Shown here: positions 4,261-64,000 of the stretch, piece after piece
Position numbering within the stretch: position 1 is the first letter of the stretch
Layout: each line of letters opens with the position of its first letter
Assembly (NCBI GenBank): GCA_006503475.1
Contig: RSEH01000154.1
Span: forward strand, 1-64,000
Origin: Stentor roeselii
Taxonomy: Eukaryota > Ciliophora > Heterotrichea > Heterotrichida > Stentoridae
Reading direction: 5' to 3'
DNA: 64,000 bases
Made by a program: the position numbers and the translations under genes
Notes under the pieces: generated by a model
What the model saw: only the letters and a program-made list of their open reading frames with translations
What the model was told of the DNA's origin: nothing
Database searches by the model: none

Positions 4261-5829
4261 CTATTGGGATCTATTACTAAAGAACTGCGACAGGAAAGTA
4301 GAAGATGAGGCACTTTCACTGTTGCTATCCAAAGTCGCTTTAATGAACATCGAGGCCGTATCAGAAGTCGCTTCATTTTCCAGGTCTCGAAAGCCTTTCA
4401 AATGGTCAACATTTGCAAGCAGCGGTTCTTTCGGCACCTGTTTATTAACTTTCTTAAAATCTTTACTTCTTTTACACAGCTTGAAGGCGACAGGCAAAAC
4501 GACCATAACTAAAACAACATCAACAAAAACCGCATAAACTTCCAAATACAAATAAAAAAGACCAAAACTCGGCCTTTGAACTAATTCACTCCAGTTGATC
4601 CGCCTTTCGAAAACTGAGAAAAAACAGTAAAACAAGACATCAACCAAGACATTACAAAGAATTGAAACAAGAAGTGCAATGAAGAGTTTCAGGTTGTTTT
4701 TTCCAATGCAATTATTGATCCATTTGCAGTGATGGTCGTATTCCCTGACACATTTCAAGCAAGTATAGCAGTGCTTTGTGCCCTTATGCTTCTTGAGTGC
4801 GCAGTAAGGACAGACGTATTCAGGAATGTACTTCAAGTAGAGGTCCTAAATGTTTTTTACCATCAAAGTCACTTTTTCATTTCGCACCTCGGTACCAGGG
4901 TCGATCTGATTTAAAACTAAGACAAGGACCAAAGTAATGAAAAGACTCACAAGTTTCGCTGAGTTTATTGAAAAAGAAATCATCTCGAAGTAGTCCTGGT
5001 CTTTGAATAAGATAAAGTAAACTGTTGAGGAATACTTCGTCAAAAGTCCGAAGATTAAGAGAAAAAAAAACTTTAAAGACTTTTGATCTGCTTTTGGATT
5101 GTTCTTAGTAAGAATTACCAATAACTTGTTAATTGCTTTATCATCACTTTTTTCTAAGTTTTTCACGTCAAGGCTTTCTTCTCTTCGGTGAAGGAGAAGA
5201 TTTCTAGTGATTTTGTAGTTTCCGGTTTGAACTGCGGCTTGCATGGCGAGTTTGACATCGACTTTAAGTCCTTTAGAAAGAGAAAGAATGAGTAAGGCCA
5301 TATCTTCTCTTCTTTCACTGATTGCCAGGTAAAGAGGACTGAAGCCTTTGAAGTCCTTTTCATCCAAATCAAGGCCGTACTCATCTCTGATAAACAAAAA
5401 AAGGCCCATTAAGCCAGTTTCAGCACATAAATGAAGACAATTCCGCCCTTTTCCAGTTTTCACGCCAGGATCAGCACCGTACTCGACCATCTTCTTCGAT
5501 AAGCCCTGTCTGAAGCTTACAGCTTTCGCTCTTAAAATACTGACATGAAGTGGAGAAAACTTGTCTTCAAGATTCACCTGCGAGTTCAACATTATCAACA
5601 AAGTGTTTGTTGAAAGTCTTGACTTGATGACTTGTACAGTCTTTTCAAGGAAAGGAATCAAGTACTTTTCATTCAACTTACTGTTGGCGATTTCGTGGAA
5701 TATGTTATAATTGAACTCGCTTGTAAGACTTTCTGAACTTACCAGGTTTACTTCGAAGATATCGGAATAATCTTGTGAGTCGTTGTTTTTAAGAGCTTCT
5801 GATAATTTTAGAAAAAGAGCTGGATGCAT
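4261..5829 (-). CDS. Ankyrin-repeat DHHC palmitoyltransferase (HIP14/ZDHHC17-like)
   Basis: One gene of two exons separated by a 15-nt intron (4846-4860). The spliced product is about 517 residues. Residues about 60-215 hold ankyrin repeats (for example FSPLHVSILRAK, NCLHLCAETG, FSPLYLAISERR). Hydrophobic membrane segments follow around 250-310. The second exon gives the Cys-rich zinc domain CPYC...KHCYTCLKC and the catalytic REYDHHCKWINNCIG, then two more membrane segments. The layout ANK-TM-TM-DHHC-TM-TM matches the HIP14/ZDHHC13/17 branch, although fewer TM segments are visible than the usual six. It would transfer palmitate to Cys of membrane proteins, probably at Golgi or endosomes, with the ankyrins binding substrate. 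Without the splice each half would look like a separate truncated gene. The C-terminal tail is acidic and Ser-rich. Confidence 0.9.
4846..4860 (-). other. 15-nt intron in the ankyrin-DHHC gene
   Basis: On the minus strand the intron reads GTAAAAAACATTTAG. It lies in phase 0 between the codons for ...TLM and DLYLKY. Retaining it would put an in-frame TAG between the ankyrin half and the DHHC half, whereas removal joins them in one frame with no ATG needed for the second half. Length and ends match Stentor introns. Confidence 0.9.
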
Positions 5830-6905: not shown

Positions 6906-7259
6906 GGAAGGTTGGGGAATTTAGAGATTTTAAATGATTTGTATGATTGGAGGATTTTAAATTGAGAGATATTTGGAGAGATTGTTGTTTGGAAATTTTA
7001 TGTTTTTGAAGTGGAATTATTTGAGTTGGTTTGAGATGGGTTGAAATAAAACTAGTCAGATTTGAAAATGATCATTATTTCTGAGATAAGTAAGTAGCTA
7101 TTGGAGTTTTTTTAATTTATTAGAGATATTTTGATTCTTTATTGGTGAGTGTTTTACGGGATTTGGGATTTTTTGATTCAGAGAGGTTTTTTTGATTTAG
7201 TTAATCATGCTTTTAAAAAGGAATTGGCTCATCATGATCTATTTATTACTGTCTATAAA

Positions 7260-8999
7260 ATGGATACCGGGTTAAGCCTTCGAGCATCAGAACTTCGTAC
7301 AAAGCTTCATCAATCAGGTTACGCAGAACACCATCTTCTATCTCTAACCTCCTCAACCCCTTTAGAGTCTCTAAAAGACTGGGGAGGCCACCTAGCCTCA
7401 TATCCAGAGGCATTAGAATACTGGTCCTGCATATTCCTCCAAAGCTGCGAAGTCAGTGAATCCCCATCAGAAAAGTTAACTTTCAAAGATTTCCTCTCAA
7501 ATTTCACATGGGCAACCTACGGGGCCTCTCAAAGTCCAGACCCCTCAGCCCTGTCCTTATACGCAGAATTAATTGACGATATCATATCAGACGAAATAAC
7601 AAAACTCGACCAAAACGACCAGATCTCCGAAATACTTCAACTCATTCAAGCTATTAAAACTTATGAAGTCAAGTTCAACGATTACAACTTCATTTATTTA
7701 AAAGTCGCAAATATTTCTATGAATAATCTTTTTACGAAGATCAATAAAATGATTGATGCACAGAAACCTCCTGAGGGTATTGTTGAAGTCGCAGAGCAGC
7801 TTGAAGTCAGTTCGAGATTAGGACTCGATGTGCAGGACTTGGCTTTTGTTTTAGCTGATCTGGTTAATGACTTTGTAGATACTTTAGTGGAAAATTGGCA
7901 GAATCCGTCGATGGGGAATGTGGATTTAAATGATGCTAAGCAGGCGCTTTTGGTTTGTAATAAATTGGGTGAGTTTGTTGGGAGTGAAAGTAAGGTGATT
8001 GTGGAGGAATGTATTGAAAAATTAAAAGTTTTTAGGATTGATTTGAGTTCGAATCTAGCTCATGTTCAAACACCTCCACAATCTCCCAAACCTTCAAATC
8101 AACCTCCTCCCCCACCCTCCGACCTTTATATTATCGACAAATCTCTGGTCAAAATTGAATACCCACCGAAATATACAGTTACTCACGGCAATCTCAGAAC
8201 AAATATTCATCATGCTACATACTACGAAGGCATAGTTTGTGTGAAAACTTACGAGTTTTTAGATAGTATTCAAAACTATGAAAAAGCTTACAATGAGATT
8301 AGGATTTATGAGAGACTTAGCAAACTAGCGAATAACAACAACTGTTTTTTATTGTATTACGGAACATTCATTGAAGGAAATAAGATATACATGGTGATGG
8401 AGTATCATGAAAGCAATTTAATGGTATGGATTAACTATTTTGAAACCAACAATCGATGGTTAAACGAAGACATGTTTTTGAATATTGCTTGGAAAGTCCT
8501 TGACTCATTCAATATCATGGTTCAAAACGGAATTCTTCATGGTGATATAAAGCCTCAAAATATGCTGGCTGATCAAAACTGGAATATAAAAATTATTGAC
8601 TTTAATGCTTCTCTCACGAAAATACAAGAAGTTGCGTTACTTAATACCGGATTCCATGTTGTTAAAGGAACTTTGGGGTACATGGCTCCCGAACTTAAAG
8701 CTGCATTAGCTGTGAATCAAGAGAAAACTAACTATAATATGGAAAAATCAGATGTTTATAGTCTTGGAGTGGTTTTTTATCAACTTTTGACTCATCAGAA
8801 TATTGATGAATTGAAGGCTGATTATATGCAGGCAGTAATTAAGAATTTTCAAGGTTTTTGTAATGATACTAAAAGTTTTTTGATTTTACTTCTAACTGAG
8901 GATAGACATGCACGGCCTACTTTCGGTGAAGCTTTAGCATCTTTTAAAAAGATTCCAGCGACTAAGACTTTTACTTTTTCACAACAAAAAAGTACTTAA
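7260..8999 (+). CDS. Atypical protein kinase with conserved N-terminal domain, paralogue 1 of 3
   Basis: A 579-residue product with two parts. Residues 1 to about 270 form a helical domain with an EYWSCIFLQSCE motif (near 60), shared with the two neighbouring genes and not recognised by me. A Pro-rich linker (near 275-285) leads to a kinase domain at about 300-570. Catalytic residues are present but the motifs are unusual: no clear glycine-rich loop (YTVTHGNLRTN), Lys in VCVKTY, Glu in NEIRIYERL, HGDIKPQN (H427, D429) in place of HRD, IDFN (D447) in place of DFG, and GTLGYMAPEL. Lys, Glu, Asp, Asn and Asp are retained, so activity is plausible. The frame stays open upstream to a GTG, but ATG 7260 aligns with the starts of both paralogues. 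It diverges from p28. Confidence 0.85.
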   Translation: MDTGLSLRASELRTKLHQSGYAEHHLLSLTSSTPLESLKDWGGHLASYPEALEYWSCIFLQSCEVSESPSEKLTFKDFLSNFTWATYGASQSPDPSALSLYAELIDDIISDEITKLDQNDQISEILQLIQAIKTYEVKFNDYNFIYLKVANISMNNLFTKINKMIDAQKPPEGIVEVAEQLEVSSRLGLDVQDLAFVLADLVNDFVDTLVENWQNPSMGNVDLNDAKQALLVCNKLGEFVGSESKVIVEECIEKLKVFRIDLSSNLAHVQTPPQSPKPSNQPPPPPSDLYIIDKSLVKIEYPPKYTVTHGNLRTNIHHATYYEGIVCVKTYEFLDSIQNYEKAYNEIRIYERLSKLANNNNCFLLYYGTFIEGNKIYMVMEYHESNLMVWINYFETNNRWLNEDMFLNIAWKVLDSFNIMVQNGILHGDIKPQNMLADQNWNIKIIDFNASLTKIQEVALLNTGFHVVKGTLGYMAPELKAALAVNQEKTNYNMEKSDVYSLGVVFYQLLTHQNIDELKADYMQAVIKNFQGFCNDTKSFLILLLTEDRHARPTFGEALASFKKIPATKTFTFSQQKST

Positions 9000-9167: not shown

Positions 9168-10859
9168 TTATCCTGTAAAACTCACAGTCTCCGGGATCAA
9201 CTTGAACAAACTAAGAGCTTCTCTAAACAACGGCCGATTAGATGGATCCTCTAAAAGCATAGTCTTTAAAAACCTTTTCGTATCGCTTGAAAAATTAGGA
9301 TAATTCTCAATATCTGCATACATGATTGCAGTAGTCAAGTTCTCCACAGATTTAAAAAGAAGCAGCTGGTAAAAGACCAGTCCGAGGCTATAAACATCTG
9401 CCTTTTCTCTATTAAATTGGAATTTTTTCACCCCATCAGCTAAGGCTTTCTTTTGTTCAGGTGCCAGGTACCCTTGAGTTCCTTGTATATCAAAAACTCC
9501 GGACTGTGAAAAACTGGTTTCTTGAATTTTTGTCAAAGAAATATCGAAGTCGATAATTTTTATGTTCCAATCATTATCGGCAAGCATATTATGAGGCTTG
9601 ATATCATTATGTAAAATTCCATGAAAAGCCATAACTGAAAAAGACTCAAGCAACTTCCAAATGATTTGAAGATACATGAGTTCCTGAAAGACATATTTCT
9701 GTTCTTTCAAATTATTAATCAAATCCATAAGGTTAATTTGATACAAGTCCATGATCATATAAATCGAAGGCCCATCAATGAAACTTCCATAATAAGTAAG
9801 AAAACAATTATTCTCTTTAGACAAAACACTAAGTTGCTCATAAATTTTTATTTCATTAACAGCTTTGCTAAGTTCTTGAAGATTTCCAGTAGTAGAAGTA
9901 TATATCTTGACACAAACAGGAGTTTCATAATAAAATCCATCATGAATACTTGTTCTAACATTCCCTCGAGTCACTGTATATTTCGAAGGCTGGGTAATAA
10001 CAACAAGATTTTTTTCAATAAAATAAATATCTAAATTCAAAGGATAATCATTAGGATCTACATGAACAGGAGGTACATACTTGTAAAATAAATCAAGTTT
10101 TCCTTTATACTCTTGAATATTATTCTTAACTTCTTCATCATTAGTGATATATTCTAACATCAATATCAATTCATGGCACTCTTGAATAACACCCTGTTCT
10201 TGTTTAAAACTCGTGCTATTCAGCTGGTAATTCGTAACCAAATCGACATACTCGAACACCCAATCAGCTAAAATCGAAGCCAGTTCTTTAACATCAATTC
10301 CAGCGCTATGTGCAATCACAAGTAGATTCGTCATACTAAAAACTTCTCTTGAAGGAGGCTTTCCATTGTTCAATTCCCCAAACTTACCCCAAAGTGAGTC
10401 AATAGCGATTCCAGCTCTTTTTTTATAAAGATATTCAAATTTTCCTAGTTTTTCTTCATATCGAGTCATCAATTCTAAAATTTTCGAAACTTCTTCAATC
10501 ATCTTCATTTCGTCAAGTTCAATTATTTCATTTGCCAAAAGGGTATCTATGCATTCAACGTAAAGTGGAAGGACTGGGTTGTTTTCTGTACAGACTCCAT
10601 ATAAAGCCCACTCTAAATTCTCTAAAAAGACCTCGAATTTGATTTTTGGGAAGCATGGGCCGAAGTCTTCACAACTTAAAAGGAAAATACAGGACCAGTA
10701 CTCGAGAAGGTCGGGAAAGTCTTTGAGTACTTTTCCGATATTGATTAAGTTTTCTGGCTTGGTGTCGTAGGTGCTGCTGAAGAGAGAGTAATCTTCGGAA
10801 TATTTTGTTTGAAGAGATGATCTCAGGCTTGATGCGTGGATGTAGAGACTGGTAGCCAT
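9168..10859 (-). CDS. Atypical protein kinase with conserved N-terminal domain, paralogue 2 of 3
   Basis: 563 residues, same two-part layout as its neighbours. The N-terminal domain carries LLEYWSCIFLLSCE and LEWALYG near residues 50-95. The kinase domain begins near 290. Its motifs are CVKIY for the ATP lysine, NEIKIYEQLS for the alpha-C Glu, ILHNDIKPHNML for the catalytic loop, KIIDFDISL for the metal loop (DFD instead of DFG) and GTQGYLAPEQ for the activation-segment end. HND in place of HRD and DFD in place of DFG are shared with paralogue 3, so these two are closer to each other than to paralogue 1. It points towards paralogue 1 (convergent, about 170 bp between stops) and away from paralogue 3. 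No intron is needed. Confidence 0.85.
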   Translation of the reverse strand: MATSLYIHASSLRSSLQTKYSEDYSLFSSTYDTKPENLINIGKVLKDFPDLLEYWSCIFLLSCEDFGPCFPKIKFEVFLENLEWALYGVCTENNPVLPLYVECIDTLLANEIIELDEMKMIEEVSKILELMTRYEEKLGKFEYLYKKRAGIAIDSLWGKFGELNNGKPPSREVFSMTNLLVIAHSAGIDVKELASILADWVFEYVDLVTNYQLNSTSFKQEQGVIQECHELILMLEYITNDEEVKNNIQEYKGKLDLFYKYVPPVHVDPNDYPLNLDIYFIEKNLVVITQPSKYTVTRGNVRTSIHDGFYYETPVCVKIYTSTTGNLQELSKAVNEIKIYEQLSVLSKENNCFLTYYGSFIDGPSIYMIMDLYQINLMDLINNLKEQKYVFQELMYLQIIWKLLESFSVMAFHGILHNDIKPHNMLADNDWNIKIIDFDISLTKIQETSFSQSGVFDIQGTQGYLAPEQKKALADGVKKFQFNREKADVYSLGLVFYQLLLFKSVENLTTAIMYADIENYPNFSSDTKRFLKTMLLEDPSNRPLFREALSLFKLIPETVSFTG

Positions 10860-11459: not shown

Positions 11460-13163
11460 ATGGCTAGTGACCTTTACTCCTACTCCAGGAGTCTTCAAGC
11501 AGAACTAATAAACAATTACCAATTAATCCCAGTCCTTCAATGCGACTACAGCTCTCCAATCTTGACAATATACAACCTCTTAGGCCAAGTAAGCGACGAT
11601 AAAAACCTGCTTCGATATTGGTCGACTATTTTTCTGTTAAGCTGCGAAAATTCAGCTCCTTGCATAGCGACTTTGGGGTTCGATCCCTTCTGCCAAAGTT
11701 TCAACTGGGCTTTAAATGGAGCCTTGAGTGAATGCCACCCGAATAGTGCTTATTATTATGCTCAATGCATTGATAGCATTTTGATCAGTGAATTTTCTGA
11801 AATGGAAGAAAAAGTCGCTATTTCTTATGCTTTGACTTTAGTTGAAATCGTGAAAAGCTATGAAAATTTTCTTGGAAACTTTGAATTTTCTTTTAAAAAA
11901 CTAGTCAATATTTTACTGGCTTCACATTGGGGAACTTTAAAAGCAATTTGTCAGGATGATGGTCCTTGTCATCAAGTTAAAGTTGTGATTGATCATCTTG
12001 TTAGGGCTTTTCGCCTTGGGTTGAATGTGAAGGAATTAATCTTTGCTGTTACAGATTTTGTTTTTGATTATATTAAAGAATTGAATTCGAATAAGCTTTA
12101 TGACCGAACTTTCAAACATAAACCTGAAAAAATTCAAGTCTCTCATGATTTAATCATGAAGCTCTATGAAATAACTGAAGATGAAGGATACAAAATAGAA
12201 ATAAATGAATACAAATTACTTCTTGACAGTATCGCTTCATATGTGCCTCCTCAAAAAGTAACTCAGAAAAAAGAAGAAGTAGTAAAGGTCCCTCCAGTTC
12301 TGAAAGACATTACAATGATTAAGATTTCTTCAGTTACCTTCAATGAGACTTTGTATAGCGTGAAAAAAGGTAACGTGAATATCAGTGTTCATAAGGGGTT
12401 ATATCAAGGTGTTAAAATCTGTATAAAAATGTACTCTTCTGCTAGAGAAAACCTTGATGATCTCAACAGAGCGAATAATGAGATCAAAATTTACGAAAAA
12501 TTATCTAAATTCGCAGATGATACGAACTGTTTCTTGAAATACTTTGGAACTTTTTTTGATAATGGAAAAATCGGTATGGTCATGGAATGGTATGAGTATA
12601 ACTTGTCGGAATATATTAACATATTAAAATCAGACAATTATCAGTTTGATATAAAATATTATTCCTTTATGACGTACAAATTGTTGAATTCTTTCAAGAT
12701 TATGGCTGATAATGGTATTCTTCATAATGACATCAAACCTCATAACATGCTAATCAATGACCAGCTGAGTATAAAAATCATAGACTTCGATATCTCACTT
12801 ATTAAAATACAAGAGGAAAACCTTTCCAGGACTGGATATTATGGAATTCAAGGCACAGACGGATACTTGGCACCTGAACAGAAAGCTGCTTTAAACGCAG
12901 GTCAAAACGTAGCAAATTACAACAGAGAAAAAGCTGATGTATACTCCTTAGGTCTTGTGTTTTACCAGCTGCTGACATATAGAAATCTTCAGAATATAAC
13001 AACTGAAATTATAGAAAAAGATATCGATGATCATCTGGTGTATAACCCTGATATAGGAGAATTTTTAAAGGCTATGCTTAATCCTGACCCGACTAATCGT
13101 CCTAATTTTTCACAAGCTTTAGCCATGCTAAAAAATGGCCCAACAACTCGTAGTTTTAGTTAA
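11460..13163 (+). CDS. Atypical protein kinase with conserved N-terminal domain, paralogue 3 of 3
   Basis: 567 residues. The N-terminal domain again has LLRYWSTIFLLSCE and FNWALNG (near residues 45-90) and ends in a Lys-rich linker near 265. The kinase domain shows ICIKMYS, NEIKIYEKLS, ILHNDIKPHNML, KIIDFDISL and GTDGYLAPEQ. Thus HxD, the Asn of the catalytic loop and the first Asp of DFG are kept, while the Arg of HRD and the Gly of DFG are replaced. ATG 11460 (MASDLY) aligns with MATSLY of paralogue 2. The three genes end alike (…TKTFTF, …TVSFTG, …TRSFS), which supports recent local duplication with inversion of the middle copy. Substrate and role are unknown. Confidence 0.85.
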   Translation: MASDLYSYSRSLQAELINNYQLIPVLQCDYSSPILTIYNLLGQVSDDKNLLRYWSTIFLLSCENSAPCIATLGFDPFCQSFNWALNGALSECHPNSAYYYAQCIDSILISEFSEMEEKVAISYALTLVEIVKSYENFLGNFEFSFKKLVNILLASHWGTLKAICQDDGPCHQVKVVIDHLVRAFRLGLNVKELIFAVTDFVFDYIKELNSNKLYDRTFKHKPEKIQVSHDLIMKLYEITEDEGYKIEINEYKLLLDSIASYVPPQKVTQKKEEVVKVPPVLKDITMIKISSVTFNETLYSVKKGNVNISVHKGLYQGVKICIKMYSSARENLDDLNRANNEIKIYEKLSKFADDTNCFLKYFGTFFDNGKIGMVMEWYEYNLSEYINILKSDNYQFDIKYYSFMTYKLLNSFKIMADNGILHNDIKPHNMLINDQLSIKIIDFDISLIKIQEENLSRTGYYGIQGTDGYLAPEQKAALNAGQNVANYNREKADVYSLGLVFYQLLTYRNLQNITTEIIEKDIDDHLVYNPDIGEFLKAMLNPDPTNRPNFSQALAMLKNGPTTRSFS

Positions 13164-13933: not shown

Positions 13934-14410
13934 TTACCCTCCAAAACTTCTAACAACAAGATAAATGATATCAAGTTCATTGATTCCCGCATCATCTAAA
14001 GTTTCATCATTTTTCAAAGGTTTTCCATTCAGAAGAAGCCACTGAGCGCCCACAGGTAATTTTTCAGCTTCTTGAATCATTTCCTTGATTTTCAAAACAC
14101 AATCATCCTTATTCGCTGAAAATTCCAAAACATGTCCCTTCAAGTTTCGAACGATAAAACTAACTTTTGACTTATTTTGACTAGTTTCTACTGCATGTTG
14201 ATTTTCTTTTGCAAGGATGATATTTTCTATCGTTTGGCATTTGTTAAGGTCTTGAATGTTGAAAGTTTTTCTCAGACATATGGGACAACTTAAAACTTTA
14301 CATTTTTCGAGATGATTTAAGCAGATTCGGCAAATTGTGTGAGCGCAGGATAACTTTATTGCGATGTTTTTGACTCGATCGTAAAGACTAAAACAAACTG
14401 GGCATTCCAT
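13934..14410 (-). CDS. RING finger fused to a C-terminal ubiquitin-like domain ending in Gly-Gly
   Basis: 158 residues. Residues 3-45 are a RING of the C3HC4 type (C3, C6, C22, H24, C27, C30, C42, C45). A linker of about 35 residues follows. Residues 83-158 align without a gap to all 76 positions of ubiquitin: L90 matches Leu8, L126 the Ile44 position, K130 Lys48, V152 Val70, R154 Arg72, and G157-G158 the terminal pair. There is no tail after Gly-Gly. Ub residues Leu73 and Arg74 are Ser and Phe here, and K11, K29, K33 and K63 are replaced. A RING would recruit an E2; a free Gly-Gly end could in principle be activated by an E1. It may be an E3 with a built-in modifier or an autoinhibitory UBL. 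This RING-then-UBL order differs from Parkin and UHRF, where the UBL comes first. Confidence 0.88.
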   Translation of the reverse strand: MECPVCFSLYDRVKNIAIKLSCAHTICRICLNHLEKCKVLSCPICLRKTFNIQDLNKCQTIENIILAKENQHAVETSQNKSKVSFIVRNLKGHVLEFSANKDDCVLKIKEMIQEAEKLPVGAQWLLLNGKPLKNDETLDDAGINELDIIYLVVRSFGG

Positions 14411-25038: not shown

Positions 25039-25788
25039 ATGGCATCTCAATCTGACCCAAGGCCGTCATCTCCAAATGCAGAAAAATTCGACGAACTTCA
25101 AAAAATTTGCCGCATTTGTTTCGAAGTCGCGACAGCAAACAACCCAATAAAATCTCCATGTTCTTGCAATGGTTCTGTGAAATACGTGCACGATGAATGC
25201 CTCAAGAAGTGGATTCTCTTTATGAAAAAAGACTCAAAAAGCTTCAAATGCGATTTATGCAAAGACTCTATGAATATACAGATAAAATTTAAATGTGTGA
25301 TTTCGTTTCAAAGGTTAAAATCTGAGATAATTAAAATCCTGATATTTCCTTTGATTTTGATTCTGTTGAATTGTTTTATTATAATTATCCTTTGTTTTTT
25401 TTATGAATCAACAACTGACCCGAAGGTTCCTGTTGTTGCAAAGATTTATATTTTGCTTTTTTTTGTTTCTTGCATTATAATGAATGTAAAGATTACAAGG
25501 GGATTATTTTCTGCTGTCAAAAATGGATGTTTCGAGAGGAAGATTAATAGTTGGATATTATTTAACAAGAAAAATAAGGAGAATCTTGATGTTACTGTTT
25601 TAAGTGAAAGTAAGCAAATGGTTCAGGGGTCTTTTAGAGATCTAAATGATTTTCAGGCTTTGCAAGATACTTCAGATCGCATTGGGTTTAATAGTAAAGA
25701 GATTTTGAAAATTGATCATGAAGGTTTGGAGATGAAAGGAAAATATGTTCCTTGTTGTAGGAACAATAACTTAGTTCAAGATTTATAA
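25039..25788 (+). CDS. MARCH-type RING-CH membrane E3 ligase, copy 1
   Basis: 249 residues. Residues 24-74 are a RING-CH (C4HC3) domain: C24, C27, C41, C43, H51, C54, C71, C74, with the typical SPCSCNGS and VHDECLKKW. Two membrane spans follow at about 98-122 and 133-152. A Lys-rich cytosolic tail ends the protein. This is the standard MARCH layout, in which the RING ubiquitinates membrane proteins to direct their endocytosis or turnover. The gene faces its paralogue at 26107-26868: the two stop codons point towards each other 318 bp apart, so the pair is an inverted duplication. Confidence 0.92.
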   Translation: MASQSDPRPSSPNAEKFDELQKICRICFEVATANNPIKSPCSCNGSVKYVHDECLKKWILFMKKDSKSFKCDLCKDSMNIQIKFKCVISFQRLKSEIIKILIFPLILILLNCFIIIILCFFYESTTDPKVPVVAKIYILLFFVSCIIMNVKITRGLFSAVKNGCFERKINSWILFNKKNKENLDVTVLSESKQMVQGSFRDLNDFQALQDTSDRIGFNSKEILKIDHEGLEMKGKYVPCCRNNNLVQDL

Positions 25789-26106: not shown

Positions 26107-26868
26107 TTAAACACCTTCTTTTTGAATAGTCGGAGAAGGACACTCAGTAATTCCACTCTCAAGTCTATCTCTAATTTTAAATACAATATCCTTCCCTCCA
26201 CAACAATCCTCCACAACCTGAGAATCCTCAAGTTTTCCACAATCATCCTTCACATCTTTAATCCCTTCACCAGCCTTTCCTCCAGTTTCATTTAAAATAG
26301 TATAATCAAGGCACTCAATTTTCCTTTTATCAAAAATTTTCCAAGAAACAATTTTCTTCTGAAAGCATCCTTTTTTAAAAGCTTGAAAAAGATTCCACAA
26401 AATGACCAAGTCAATAACAATACAAGAAATCAAAATAAGCAGGACATAAGCCTTCGCGAAAGATGAAATCTTTGGATTAGTGAAAGATTTACTCAAGAAA
26501 ATGACGATAAGGACTATGAAGTTGCTGAAAATAAAAAAAATGATAGGAAGCAGGATGATTTTTAGAATTTCATATTTGAGTCTTTTACAGGAAAAAACTA
26601 ACTGAGAGCTAAATTCCATCTTCAGGCGTGCTTTACATAAGTCGCATTTGAAATTTGATGGGTCTTTCTCCATCATGAGAATCCACTTCTTGAGGCACTG
26701 CTCGTGGATGTATTTTATTGAACCACTGCAACTACATGGAGACGTGATTGGGTTGTTTGGAGACCCAACGTCAAGACATATACGGCAGAATTCTTTTGGG
26801 TCTTCTGATGTTTTATCTAAGTTTTGGAACTTTGATGGAGTCTTGGTCTGGGAGTTTTCAGATTCCAT
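26107..26868 (-). CDS. MARCH-type RING-CH membrane E3 ligase, copy 2
   Basis: 253 residues from ATG 26868 (MESENS). The frame runs 12 codons further upstream but only from a non-ATG codon, and MESENS corresponds to MASQSD of copy 1. The RING-CH domain has the same C4HC3 pattern (CRICLDVG, SPCSCSGS, IHEQCLKKW, CDLC). Two membrane spans follow, with matching polar residues and a closely related juxtamembrane segment (FKKGCFQKKIVSW against VKNGCFERKINSW in copy 1). The tail diverges, being Cys- and Asp-rich here. It should act on membrane cargo; the divergent tail suggests a different partner. Confidence 0.92.
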   Translation of the reverse strand: MESENSQTKTPSKFQNLDKTSEDPKEFCRICLDVGSPNNPITSPCSCSGSIKYIHEQCLKKWILMMEKDPSNFKCDLCKARLKMEFSSQLVFSCKRLKYEILKIILLPIIFFIFSNFIVLIVIFLSKSFTNPKISSFAKAYVLLILISCIVIDLVILWNLFQAFKKGCFQKKIVSWKIFDKRKIECLDYTILNETGGKAGEGIKDVKDDCGKLEDSQVVEDCCGGKDIVFKIRDRLESGITECPSPTIQKEGV

Positions 26869-28019
26869 GAATATTATTATTGGATTTGATTGATTATTAT
26901 ACAAGCTGAAATCTTGTTAATTTTAGTATTTAGGGGTTTTTAGGATGGGTTGAATTTTAGATATTTTTTTATTTTAGAGGGTTGTGGGTTGAGGGGTTGT
27001 CATTCTTGTGATTTTTAAATGAATTTTGGATTTATCTGGGTTCTTATTGTTTATTACTTGTTTTTTGAGTATTATAGAAAGATTTTCAAATAATATTATG
27101 TAATGAATTAATAAATATGTTTGACTTTTATATGTTTTTGGATAACATCTTTAGCTTTTGTTTGATTAATAAGTACTTAAGCTATGGATTTGAATTATAT
27201 TCTGAATTTTTTTAAAGGATTAGGATAGTTTAGAGTCGAATATACGATATATAAGCTTTTCGTTGAACAAACTCGAATTTCGATATTTGATTATTTCTAA
27301 ATCGTCTTTTTGTTTATTGGATTGTCTTACTACGAAGACTTGAACACTATGGTAATAACTTTTGACATATTTGATCAAAGTTCACTCATCATTCCTCAGA
27401 AAGAAAAACCATAGAGCCAGAACTGCTAGATATAAAATTTTACTTACTTTGATTTAATTGGATGTGTAAATATGATTAAAACTTAAATCTCGTAAACTTA
27501 GCAGTGATAATATGAAGAATTAGAAAACTGATGCTATTTGTGTTAATAAATTTATTAATATATATAATTATCACATATCTAGACTCTATCTATTTATCTA
27601 AACTATTTGATGATTGTTTACAATTTAATTAATTCTTAAAGAATCATTCTTTGCATCTCAAAATTATCTTGAGGTTTTTCTATGATTAACTCGTAGAAAA
27701 TTCTCAATCAAATTATTTCTCAGAGATATTTATCCAAAAATATCCACCTTCATATACATTAAAAGTAATTGAATTTAATAATTAGAAGAGAATCAAATAG
27801 TGAACTTAAAAAATTTGAAAGAATCATCAATCAAGTAAAATCTTCTGTTAATAAACAAGTTTCCAATTCACAAATCACTAAACAAATTTCTACTAATTAA
27901 TGGATAGATTACAATATATGCTTGAAAAAAGGACTTTGATTGCATTTACCCTTTAAAATAATTCTATTTTTATCTAAGAGCTCATTTATATCATCATGGT
28001 CAAAGAGATTTTTATTCAT
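26869..28019. other. Intergenic stretch, C/A-rich leader then AT-rich DNA
   Basis: Next to MARCH copy 2 (about 26905-27010) the gene strand is C/A-rich and G-poor, the promoter-like composition seen elsewhere. The rest is AT-rich without a supported frame. Confidence 0.45.
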
Positions 28020-62587: not shown

Positions 62588-64000
62588 ATGATGAAAATGA
62601 TGTCAAAAAATCGATTATTCAGATGCATTTGTCAAATTAACGACATAAATTCTTCTCAAATAAGAGCTCATATAAAAATACCTAAAAATCATAGAATCAC
62701 TCTAATTAAACCTGAAAAAACCAAAAAAGAAATCAAAAATGTGCAAATTTACTTAAGAATCATATTTTTAAAGTCTTCAAATCCTCGAATACAACAAACA
62801 AACAACCAATTAATTTCAAATCTTTCAAAAAATTTACTTTCATTAATTCAAGAATTTCACAATCATTCAAACTCCCATGAATCTTTAATTTCAACTTCTA
62901 AGCCAAACCTAATCATTCCAAAAAATTCAAAGAACACCAAATTTTTAATCCAATTCTACAATCAAAATTTATTCAAAGAAACTTCAAATTTTAAATACCT
63001 CAAACACAGAACTCATCAAGGAATGAACCAATTTTTAATATCTCATATCACTGGAATAGAAAAAATTTCAATAGAAGAAAATTTGAAAGTTTTGGTCACT
63101 GGAGGCTGGGATTGAAGTATCAGAATTTTTAACCTTGAGAGTCTTTCACAAATTTCTTGCTTTTGGTTCCATGAATCATGTGTCAGATCAATCGATATAA
63201 AATCAAATCTTTGTATAACCGGTTCAGATGATTCAAAAATTTATTTGATCAATCTTAAAACAAAAAAACTTAAAACTTGCTTTAAAGGGGAACATACACA
63301 AATTTATCATTTGATGTTATCTGGGAACTCAGAGTTATTCTTGAGTGCATCTTTCGAAGGATATATCGAAATATGGTCTATTTCTCAGAAACAAATTTTA
63401 AGAGAAATGATTGCTTTTGATTCTGTTATTTTTGCAAGATTTATTCAAAATGATCAATTCTTAATATGCTCAACTTATCAAGGATATATTCAAAAGTTCT
63501 CATTTGAACACCAGCTTCCTGTAATTAAAGAACAGTTTAAAGATGATATAAGGTGCAGTAGTTTCATTGAAGAAAACAATATTTTTTAACTGGACATCAA
63601 GATGGATGCATTCAAGTTTTAAAAAATTTGAAACTCTTCAAAACTATTCAAGCCCATTTGAAAAGGGTATATTCAATAGACTACTGCTTAAAAAGTGACA
63701 AATTTGTTTCAGGGTCTTCTGATAAAACGGTAAAAGTTTGGAAGTTATCTTTGTTTTCACCTCTAAATGTACTTGATCATTTCAAACAAGAGATTTTGTG
63801 TGTAAAACTCTTGAATAATCAAATTTATTCAAGTGATTTAGGATATAGTATTCAGAAATCTAATATTTTATCACCCGAAGTGATAAAAACAAAACAAAGA
63901 GAATTTGGATGTTTTTATTTCTCGATTTCAATAAAGCGTATGTTAATTGTTTATGGAATTAAAGAAGTTTTCTTGCATAGTTTATGTTCGAACTCTGATA
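62588..64000 (+). pseudogene. WD40-repeat gene broken by a TGA and a frameshift, runs off the window
   Basis: The first 175 codons end in a WD40 unit, LVTGGWD, at TGA 63113-63115. The same frame then continues the unit (SIRIFNL) and gives further repeats: ITGSDDSKIYLINL, LSASFEGYIEIWSI, CSTYQGYIQKFSF. At a run of six T near 63580-63585 the frame shifts by one base and the repeats continue as LTGHQDGCIQVLKN and VSGSSDKTVKVWKL to the window's edge. No 15-16-nt GT-AG intron removes the TGA or restores the frame. It may be a pseudogene, or the T-run shift may be a sequencing error; the TGA is harder to explain that way. The intact WD40 gene at 37302-38627 is of similar kind. Confidence 0.8.

Follow-up and report, generated by a model that had tools for sequence, protein, structure and literature searches.

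RING finger proteins with a C-terminal ubiquitin-like domain in Stentor roeselii: a five-member family that ends in Gly-Gly in three copies

Introduction

In the conjugation pathways that we know of, modifier and ligase are separate molecules: ubiquitin, ISG15, FAT10 and NEDD8 carry, to our knowledge, no RING. Parkin and UHRF1 have a RING and a ubiquitin-like domain (UBL) in one chain, with the UBL at the N-terminus and no usable Gly-Gly. A survey of the beta-grasp fold describes eukaryotic proteins in which UBLs are combined with E3 ligases, most often RINGs (PMC1949818). In the RING proteins of PRC1 (Ring1A/B, Bmi-1), the RING is N-terminal and the C-terminal part is a UBL, RAWUL, that has no diglycine (PMC2447854). 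A survey of ubiquitin genes lists fusions of ubiquitin with a zinc ring finger, containing one or two ubiquitin domains, for Bigelowiella natans and Guillardia theta; one of the G. theta genes has a single N-terminal ubiquitin (PMC6332867).

Here we describe a gene from the ciliate Stentor roeselii, situated in a 64,000-nucleotide stretch of contig RSEH01000154.1 (the whole of this stretch is called the window), that encodes a RING and, behind it, a UBL ending in Gly-Gly. A search of open PMC full text found no description of a natural protein of this kind. New here are the five-member family to which the gene belongs, the split retention of Gly-Gly within it, and the conservation of the tail in the three copies that have kept it. 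Going by sequence, these three members are possibly RING proteins with a conjugatable UBL tail, a reading to which we give a little under an even chance.

The gene and its product

The features are collected in Table 1. An earlier note on this DNA, silent on the strand, had proposed a RING ahead of a complete UBL with a free C-terminal Gly-Gly, and the translated ORF, on the minus strand, has this layout. The coverage of all 76 ubiquitin positions by residues 83–158, gap-free and ending in Gly-Gly, was borne out as well by alignment to the ubiquitin of the same genome's Ub-eL40 gene, to which 23 of the 76 positions are identical; 20,000 composition-preserving shuffles gave at most 16 identities. 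Alignment with PDB ubiquitin took in ubiquitin residues 3–76, again without a gap, and the Pfam ubiquitin model PF00240 matches residues 86–154 (E 5e-16, 58.7 bits, cut-off 25.4). A helix is predicted in the linker at residues 61–73, beside a KC-x-TI-[ED] stretch common to four of the five paralogues.

Table 1. Positions of the gene, its parts, its paralogues and other loci discussed in the text. Coordinates without a contig are those of the window.
Feature	Position	Strand	Remarks
RING-UBL gene	13934..14410	minus	single unbroken ORF, 158 codons + TAA stop
RING finger, residues 3-45	14276..14404	minus	C3HC4, eight zinc ligands; L46 directly after last Cys
Linker, residues 46-82 (37 residues)	14165..14275	minus	
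Ubiquitin-family domain, residues 83-158	13937..14164	minus	ubiquitin positions 1-76, gap-free
C-terminal tail LVVRSFGG, residues 151-158	13937..13960	minus	R154 = ubiquitin R72; G157-G158 = G75-G76
TAA stop	13934..13936	minus	directly behind Gly-Gly
Paralogue L002	contig C3		51% to window protein
Paralogue L003	contig C137		42% to window protein
Paralogue L004	contig C508		37% to window protein
Paralogue L005	contig C432		34% to window protein
Tandem single-UBL genes / divergent E1 region (L077)	C77:127312-128581	minus	
Tandem single-UBL genes / divergent E1 region (L081)	C77:141436-144306	plus	

A structure model of the window protein (pLDDT 78, pTM 0.50, five sequences in the alignment) has a UBL that matches ubiquitin in comparison with PDB structures. 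The modelled fold supports the UBL; the predicted pose of RING and UBL relative to each other is not backed. Almost all structure matches are to ubiquitin or UBL chains, and the RING half is hardly probed by them. Ranks 1–3 of the viral structure matches are ubiquitin-domain proteins of Pandoravirus (164–177 columns aligned), and rank 7 is a 434-aa Barrevirus "Ring and ubiquitin domain protein (Fragment)".

The zinc ligands of the RING are C3, C6, C22, H24, C27, C30, C42 and C45. Six Pfam RING models match the window protein with E-values of 3e-5 to 4e-3, all below their gathering cut-offs, and such models match all five family members at E up to 1. Since the eight C3HC4 ligands are invariant in all five paralogues, including those that lack Gly-Gly, we argue that the RING is in use. 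Among solved RINGs, the nearest in sequence is Roquin-1, followed by TRIM32 and TRIM21 (E 2e-5 to 5e-4 for these TRIM-type RINGs).

A cationic linchpin directly after the last RING cysteine is common, if not universal. In the five copies this residue is L, S, L, T and L, and none has the Arg or Lys, compared with an Arg in seven of ten other RINGs of the same genome (Fisher P 0.026; 15 non-family RING loci were taken, of which ten fitted the eight-ligand pattern). As the linchpin is missing throughout the family, intrinsic E3 activity may be weak, which counts against the conjugatable-tail reading. RINGs with another residue at this position can be active, like TRIM32 with Ser and XIAP with Tyr (where Arg brings an improvement); the missing linchpin is part of the reason why TRIM6 and TRIM22 are pseudoligases (PMC12326332, PMC11992055).

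Could the protein end elsewhere than it seems to? An intron or an assembly correction extending the C-terminus had been considered in the earlier note; neither finds support, and in three paralogues the TAA occupies the same position. No GT..AG strings of 14–16 nt overlap the stops of the window gene, L003 or L004, and one GTT...GAG 15-mer overlaps the stop of L002. A 16-nt GTT...GAG string, which counts against the conjugatable-tail reading, lies inside the tails of the window gene and L003 and is absent from that of L004; these 16-mers are unlike the GTAA...TAG of three candidate introns of 15 nt, found among GT..AG strings of 10–59 nt that join long open frames. The length of 45 nt also gave three candidates, only strings of 14–17 nt having been inspected by sequence, and when the GTA..AG strings of the window were sorted by length, there was no excess at 15 nt. 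Introns of Stentor are 15–16 nt long (PMC9505925). In form and size the three candidates agree with such introns, but the counts, taken by themselves, give 15 nt no special standing. An artefact in which a stop codon is read as sense was ruled out: the three copies with Gly-Gly all end in TAA, with unrelated DNA behind. Over 60 nt past the stops, similarity is no higher than in shuffles, from which it follows that conservation stops at Gly-Gly. The 35 window ORFs of at least 150 aa that start with ATG end in TAA (20), TGA (8) or TAG (7).

Several other genes of the window were assessed by eye. Adjoining the RING-UBL gene are three similar kinase-like ORFs of 563–616 aa (7149–8999, plus; 9168–10859, minus; 11460–13163, plus). 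Two similar ORFs that face each other (25039–25788, plus; 26107–26904, minus) have the look of membrane RING-CH proteins of MARCH type. Two ORFs at 4261–5829 (minus) resemble the two portions, ankyrin and DHHC, of a single palmitoyltransferase gene, split by a 15-nt candidate intron, GTAAAAAACATTTAG. A WD40-like ORF at 62588–63115 (plus) has a TGA stop, after which the frame is free of TAA and TAG for about 158 codons and is again WD40-like; a frame break, read-through, an intron or a decaying gene would each account for this.

A family of five paralogues

Searching the assembly (44.4 Mb in 522 contigs) with the window protein gave 95 matches with E-values no higher than 10, and in five of them the matched part of the query is 150 residues or longer. 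These five full-length paralogues have an identical order and spacing of RING, linker and UBL. With L003, L004 and L005 as queries, these five loci again rank first, and no sixth near-full-length member appeared in genome searches with four of the five members. The copies that end in Gly-Gly (window, L003 and L004) are 35–42% identical to each other. Weaker matches take in the RING and extend over a portion of the UBL, at query residues 1–111 (C302), 1–118 (C31) and 1–125 (C247) with the window protein, and 1–140 (C34) with another family member; these four were not counted as members, being absent from the PF00240 matches. A chance ORF was ruled out by the four paralogues, by dN below dS and by the shuffles. 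In all ten pairs dN (0.38–0.84) is lower than dS (at least 1.27, saturated in two pairs and high in the others).

In a tree of 28 UBLs of the genome, made with the five tails cut off, the family forms one clade (99/99) in which the window copy and L002 are sisters (95/84), the bootstrap being unsettled; the full-length tree of the five supports no inner branch. Because the five UBLs form a single clade, the family likely arose from one fusion of a RING with a ubiquitin-derived domain, followed by duplication and divergence, and not from repeated capture of ubiquitin. No relatives were confirmed among viral contigs and other genome contigs (48 and 4 pattern matches), in scans that each depended on one short N-terminal peptide pattern and had low sensitivity, and PHROGs gave no match below E 0.08.

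Other UBLs and E1s in the genome

PF00240 has 118 matches in the genome at E up to 0.01, and divergent or partial ubiquitin repeats abound. The census of UBLs took in 72 of these, of which 70 were placed in examined loci, and among these 70 the strict eight-ligand RING pattern occurs in the UBL frame of the five family members only. A UBL match ends at most eight residues from the stop in 19 ORF rows, and six of these end exactly in Gly-Gly: three of the five RING-UBL rows versus three of the 14 other C-terminal UBL rows, a difference that is no statistical proof. Gly-Gly is not kept by default in the C-terminal UBLs of this genome.

The three Gly-Gly ends outside the family (RNRGG, RNKGG and RYRGG) belong to small single-UBL genes in tandem on contig C77. 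This trio lies about 13 kb from a divergent UBA1-type E1 (957-aa frame), the second of two E1_UFD matches in the genome; the first is a 1023-aa frame on C196. The best PDB matches of the C77 E1 are UBA1, then UBA6 and UBA7, and the stretch around its expected active-site Cys appears shifted by eye. The trio and this E1 are possibly a dedicated modifier-E1 pair, or the E1 may be degenerate.

At another locus (C204:36417–36632 and the preceding frame), a stretch of Cys and His that resembles a B-box by eye is followed by a central region and then by a C-terminal UBL with the ending LVLRPR; this is a further fusion of a zinc finger and a C-terminal UBL, without Gly-Gly. Numerous ubiquitin-like arrays, divergent and truncated, are found on contigs C80, C288, C50, C453, C471, C202 and C384, and frames on C288, C453 and C471 have a similar ending, IYVKEH[HS]E, after the last UBL.

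The Gly-Gly tail

The C-termini of the family read VVRSFGG (window), VVRSFGG (L003) and VIRTFGG (L004), each with TAA immediately after; L002 ends in VDRSCRR, then TGA, and L005 in VSWIRIKKV, then TAA, with no Gly-Gly. The earlier note had counted orthologues without a terminal Gly-Gly against its reading, and among the paralogues this objection holds in part: L002 and L005 lack it, and the other three of the five have kept Gly-Gly directly before the stop. As these two have lost it and still have RING and UBL, the diglycine is dispensable for part of the family and does not define it; this speaks against the conjugatable tail, as does the position of L002 as sister to the window copy.

In tests that were chosen after the tail had been seen, on copies that are not independent, the eight tail residues proved better conserved than the UBL core wherever both copies have Gly-Gly: window versus L003, 8/8 in the tail and 25/68 in the core (Fisher P 0.0007); window versus L004, 6/8 (the changes being V/I and S/T) and 20/68 (P 0.017); L003 versus L004, 6/8 and 19/68. 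There is no such excess between the window copy and L002, which has lost Gly-Gly (4/8 and 35/68, P 0.67), a further point against the conjugatable tail. Six of the eight tail columns are identical in all three copies, compared with 11 of the 68 other UBL columns (hypergeometric P 0.0012, or 0.0037 against the whole protein, with the same reservations). On the UBL tree, the Gly-Gly end is probably ancestral and was lost in L002 and L005.

Is Gly-Gly then a functionless vestige of descent from ubiquitin, drifting and already lost twice? Its absence from two of the five copies, in a genome with so many divergent and partial ubiquitin repeats, would fit this explanation, which is nevertheless quite improbable: the tail is better conserved than the core in three copies, and Gly-Gly has persisted while the UBLs diverged by about 2.6 changes per column (3.6 if the stem is included). 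By a rough estimate from the branch lengths of the UBL tree, both glycines would have remained unchanged in three lineages with a probability of about 0.005 at the mean UBL rate and 0.27 at a quarter of that rate. It seems that the ending was retained in some copies for a purpose.

Since the tail has been kept in three copies, we argue that something reads the free end. One reader could be a KLHDC-type cullin ligase, with the terminal Gly-Gly serving as a C-degron or docking end that governs the protein's own turnover. A C-terminal Gly-Gly is the consensus degron of KLHDC1 and KLHDC2, and some UBLs with such an end are substrates of KLHDCX ligases, which ubiquitylate them (PMC11568203). On the other hand, a C-degron alone would need neither R72 nor a whole ubiquitin fold, and we regard this explanation as very unlikely; both it and the vestige rank below the conjugatable tail and the non-covalent role that is described below. 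The most economical reader, and the one that we favour from the sequence features, would be a ubiquitin-type E1. It is this economy, together with the kept tail and the E1_UFD frames on C196 and C77, that makes the conjugatable tail our favoured reading.

Lysines and surfaces of the UBL

The statement that R72 and K48 are kept while most other ubiquitin lysines are gone agrees with the position-wise alignment of the window UBL: K27 and K48 are present, and K6, K11, K29, K33 and K63 are replaced by R, H, M, A and E. V70 is also kept, I44 is L, R42 is W, and L73-R74 is SF. In the family as a whole, K27 is kept in all five copies, K6 is R in all five, and K63 is lost in all five; K48 is present in the window copy, L002 and L004. 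R72 is found in the window copy, L002, L003 and L004, and in L005 its presence depends on the alignment.

R42 and Q40 of ubiquitin are important for contacts with E1 or in the donor. With R42 replaced by W or L and Q40 lost in all five copies, these contacts could be weakened, and this too counts against a conjugatable tail. A surface patch of the L8/I44/V70 type is present throughout, with L, I, L, F and L at position 8, L at position 44 in 5/5 and V at position 70 in 5/5.

The presence of this patch also in the copies without Gly-Gly favours the main rival of the conjugatable tail, according to which the UBL would be a built-in ubiquitin that binds the RING, an E2 or the proteasome non-covalently and thereby activates or targets the ligase in cis, the Gly-Gly remaining unconjugated. 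The existence of two copies without Gly-Gly fits such a role, and a RING without a linchpin could profit from help of this kind. The diglycine-less C-terminal UBL of the PRC1 RING proteins (PMC2447854) is a parallel, and a mechanism is at hand in the regulatory ubiquitin that sits non-covalently on the RING of Ark2C and boosts transfer, as shown with an engineered ubiquitin-Ark2C fusion (PMC8897509). However, a non-covalent role does not explain why R-[ST]-F-G-G-stop, which lies past the last strand, should be better kept than any other stretch of the UBL in three diverged copies. We consider this role doubtful, if less so than the other rivals.

How might a conjugatable tail work? The RING would recruit an E2. 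In the copies that end in Gly-Gly, a ubiquitin-type E1 would read the UBL tail and hand it to an E2, and by way of its C-terminus the protein would become linked to a substrate or a partner, or in trans to itself, bringing its RING along. The copies without Gly-Gly would serve as docking or E2-activating modules, relying solely on the RING and on the surface of the folded UBL with its L8/I44/V70-type patch. It is also conceivable, but unlikely, that the protein is a modifier that carries its own ligase, in which the Gly-Gly-activated UBL on the E2 would be gripped by the RING of the same chain, so that donor and E3 form one molecule, and the tagged target would be left with an active RING; the sisters without Gly-Gly would then be regulators or antagonists.

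A natural protein that starts with a RING and finishes with a Gly-Gly of E1 type would be a minimal system in which to ask whether conjugation can deliver a ligase. It would also bear on how ubiquitin-derived domains shift between modifier and fixed module, and the three copies with Gly-Gly and two without, in one genome, are a natural experiment on the purpose of the diglycine.

Comparison with known systems

The RING of the window protein is close in sequence to those of TRIM32 and TRIM21 (after Roquin-1), and the protein, which has 158 aa and no Pfam match to a B-box, a coiled coil or a substrate domain, is not a TRIM protein. Unlike in Parkin and UHRF1, the UBL is C-terminal and has a free Gly-Gly; with this position of the UBL, a single RING and no IBR match in Pfam, the protein does not belong to the RBR ligases of Parkin type.

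The view in the earlier note that RING/UBL proteins carry the UBL at the N-terminus was too strong, given the C-terminal UBL of the PRC1 RING proteins, which has no Gly-Gly, and the fusions of ubiquitin with a RING-type finger in algae. The window protein shares the order of the RING-RAWUL proteins, with the RING first and the UBL last. It differs from them in that its UBL matches PF00240 and ends in the diglycine that RAWUL lacks, and the RAWUL profile PF16207 is absent from the 16 Pfam families reported for it at E up to 1. In the genome, PF16207 finds a single match (E up to 0.01), located on C75, where the frame has LRR- and FYVE-like parts by eye and is not one of this family.

The combination of a ubiquitin-type domain and a RING-type finger in one natural gene is shared with the ubiquitin-zinc ring finger fusions of algae, but a RING followed by a divergent UBL that ends in Gly-Gly is not mentioned among these as they are described in section 4 of PMC6332867. 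One ubiquitin and one RING per chain are found in the engineered fusions Ub-RNF165/Ark2C (7r70) and Ub-TRIM21 (7bbd), both of which occur among the PDB matches of the window protein. These are man-made, and their ubiquitin precedes the RING, which makes the diglycine internal, whereas in the window protein it is terminal. In the latter respect the protein resembles ubiquitin, ISG15, FAT10 and NEDD8, with which it shares the full ubiquitin fold and the Gly-Gly end, R72-x-x-GG being terminal as in ubiquitin itself.
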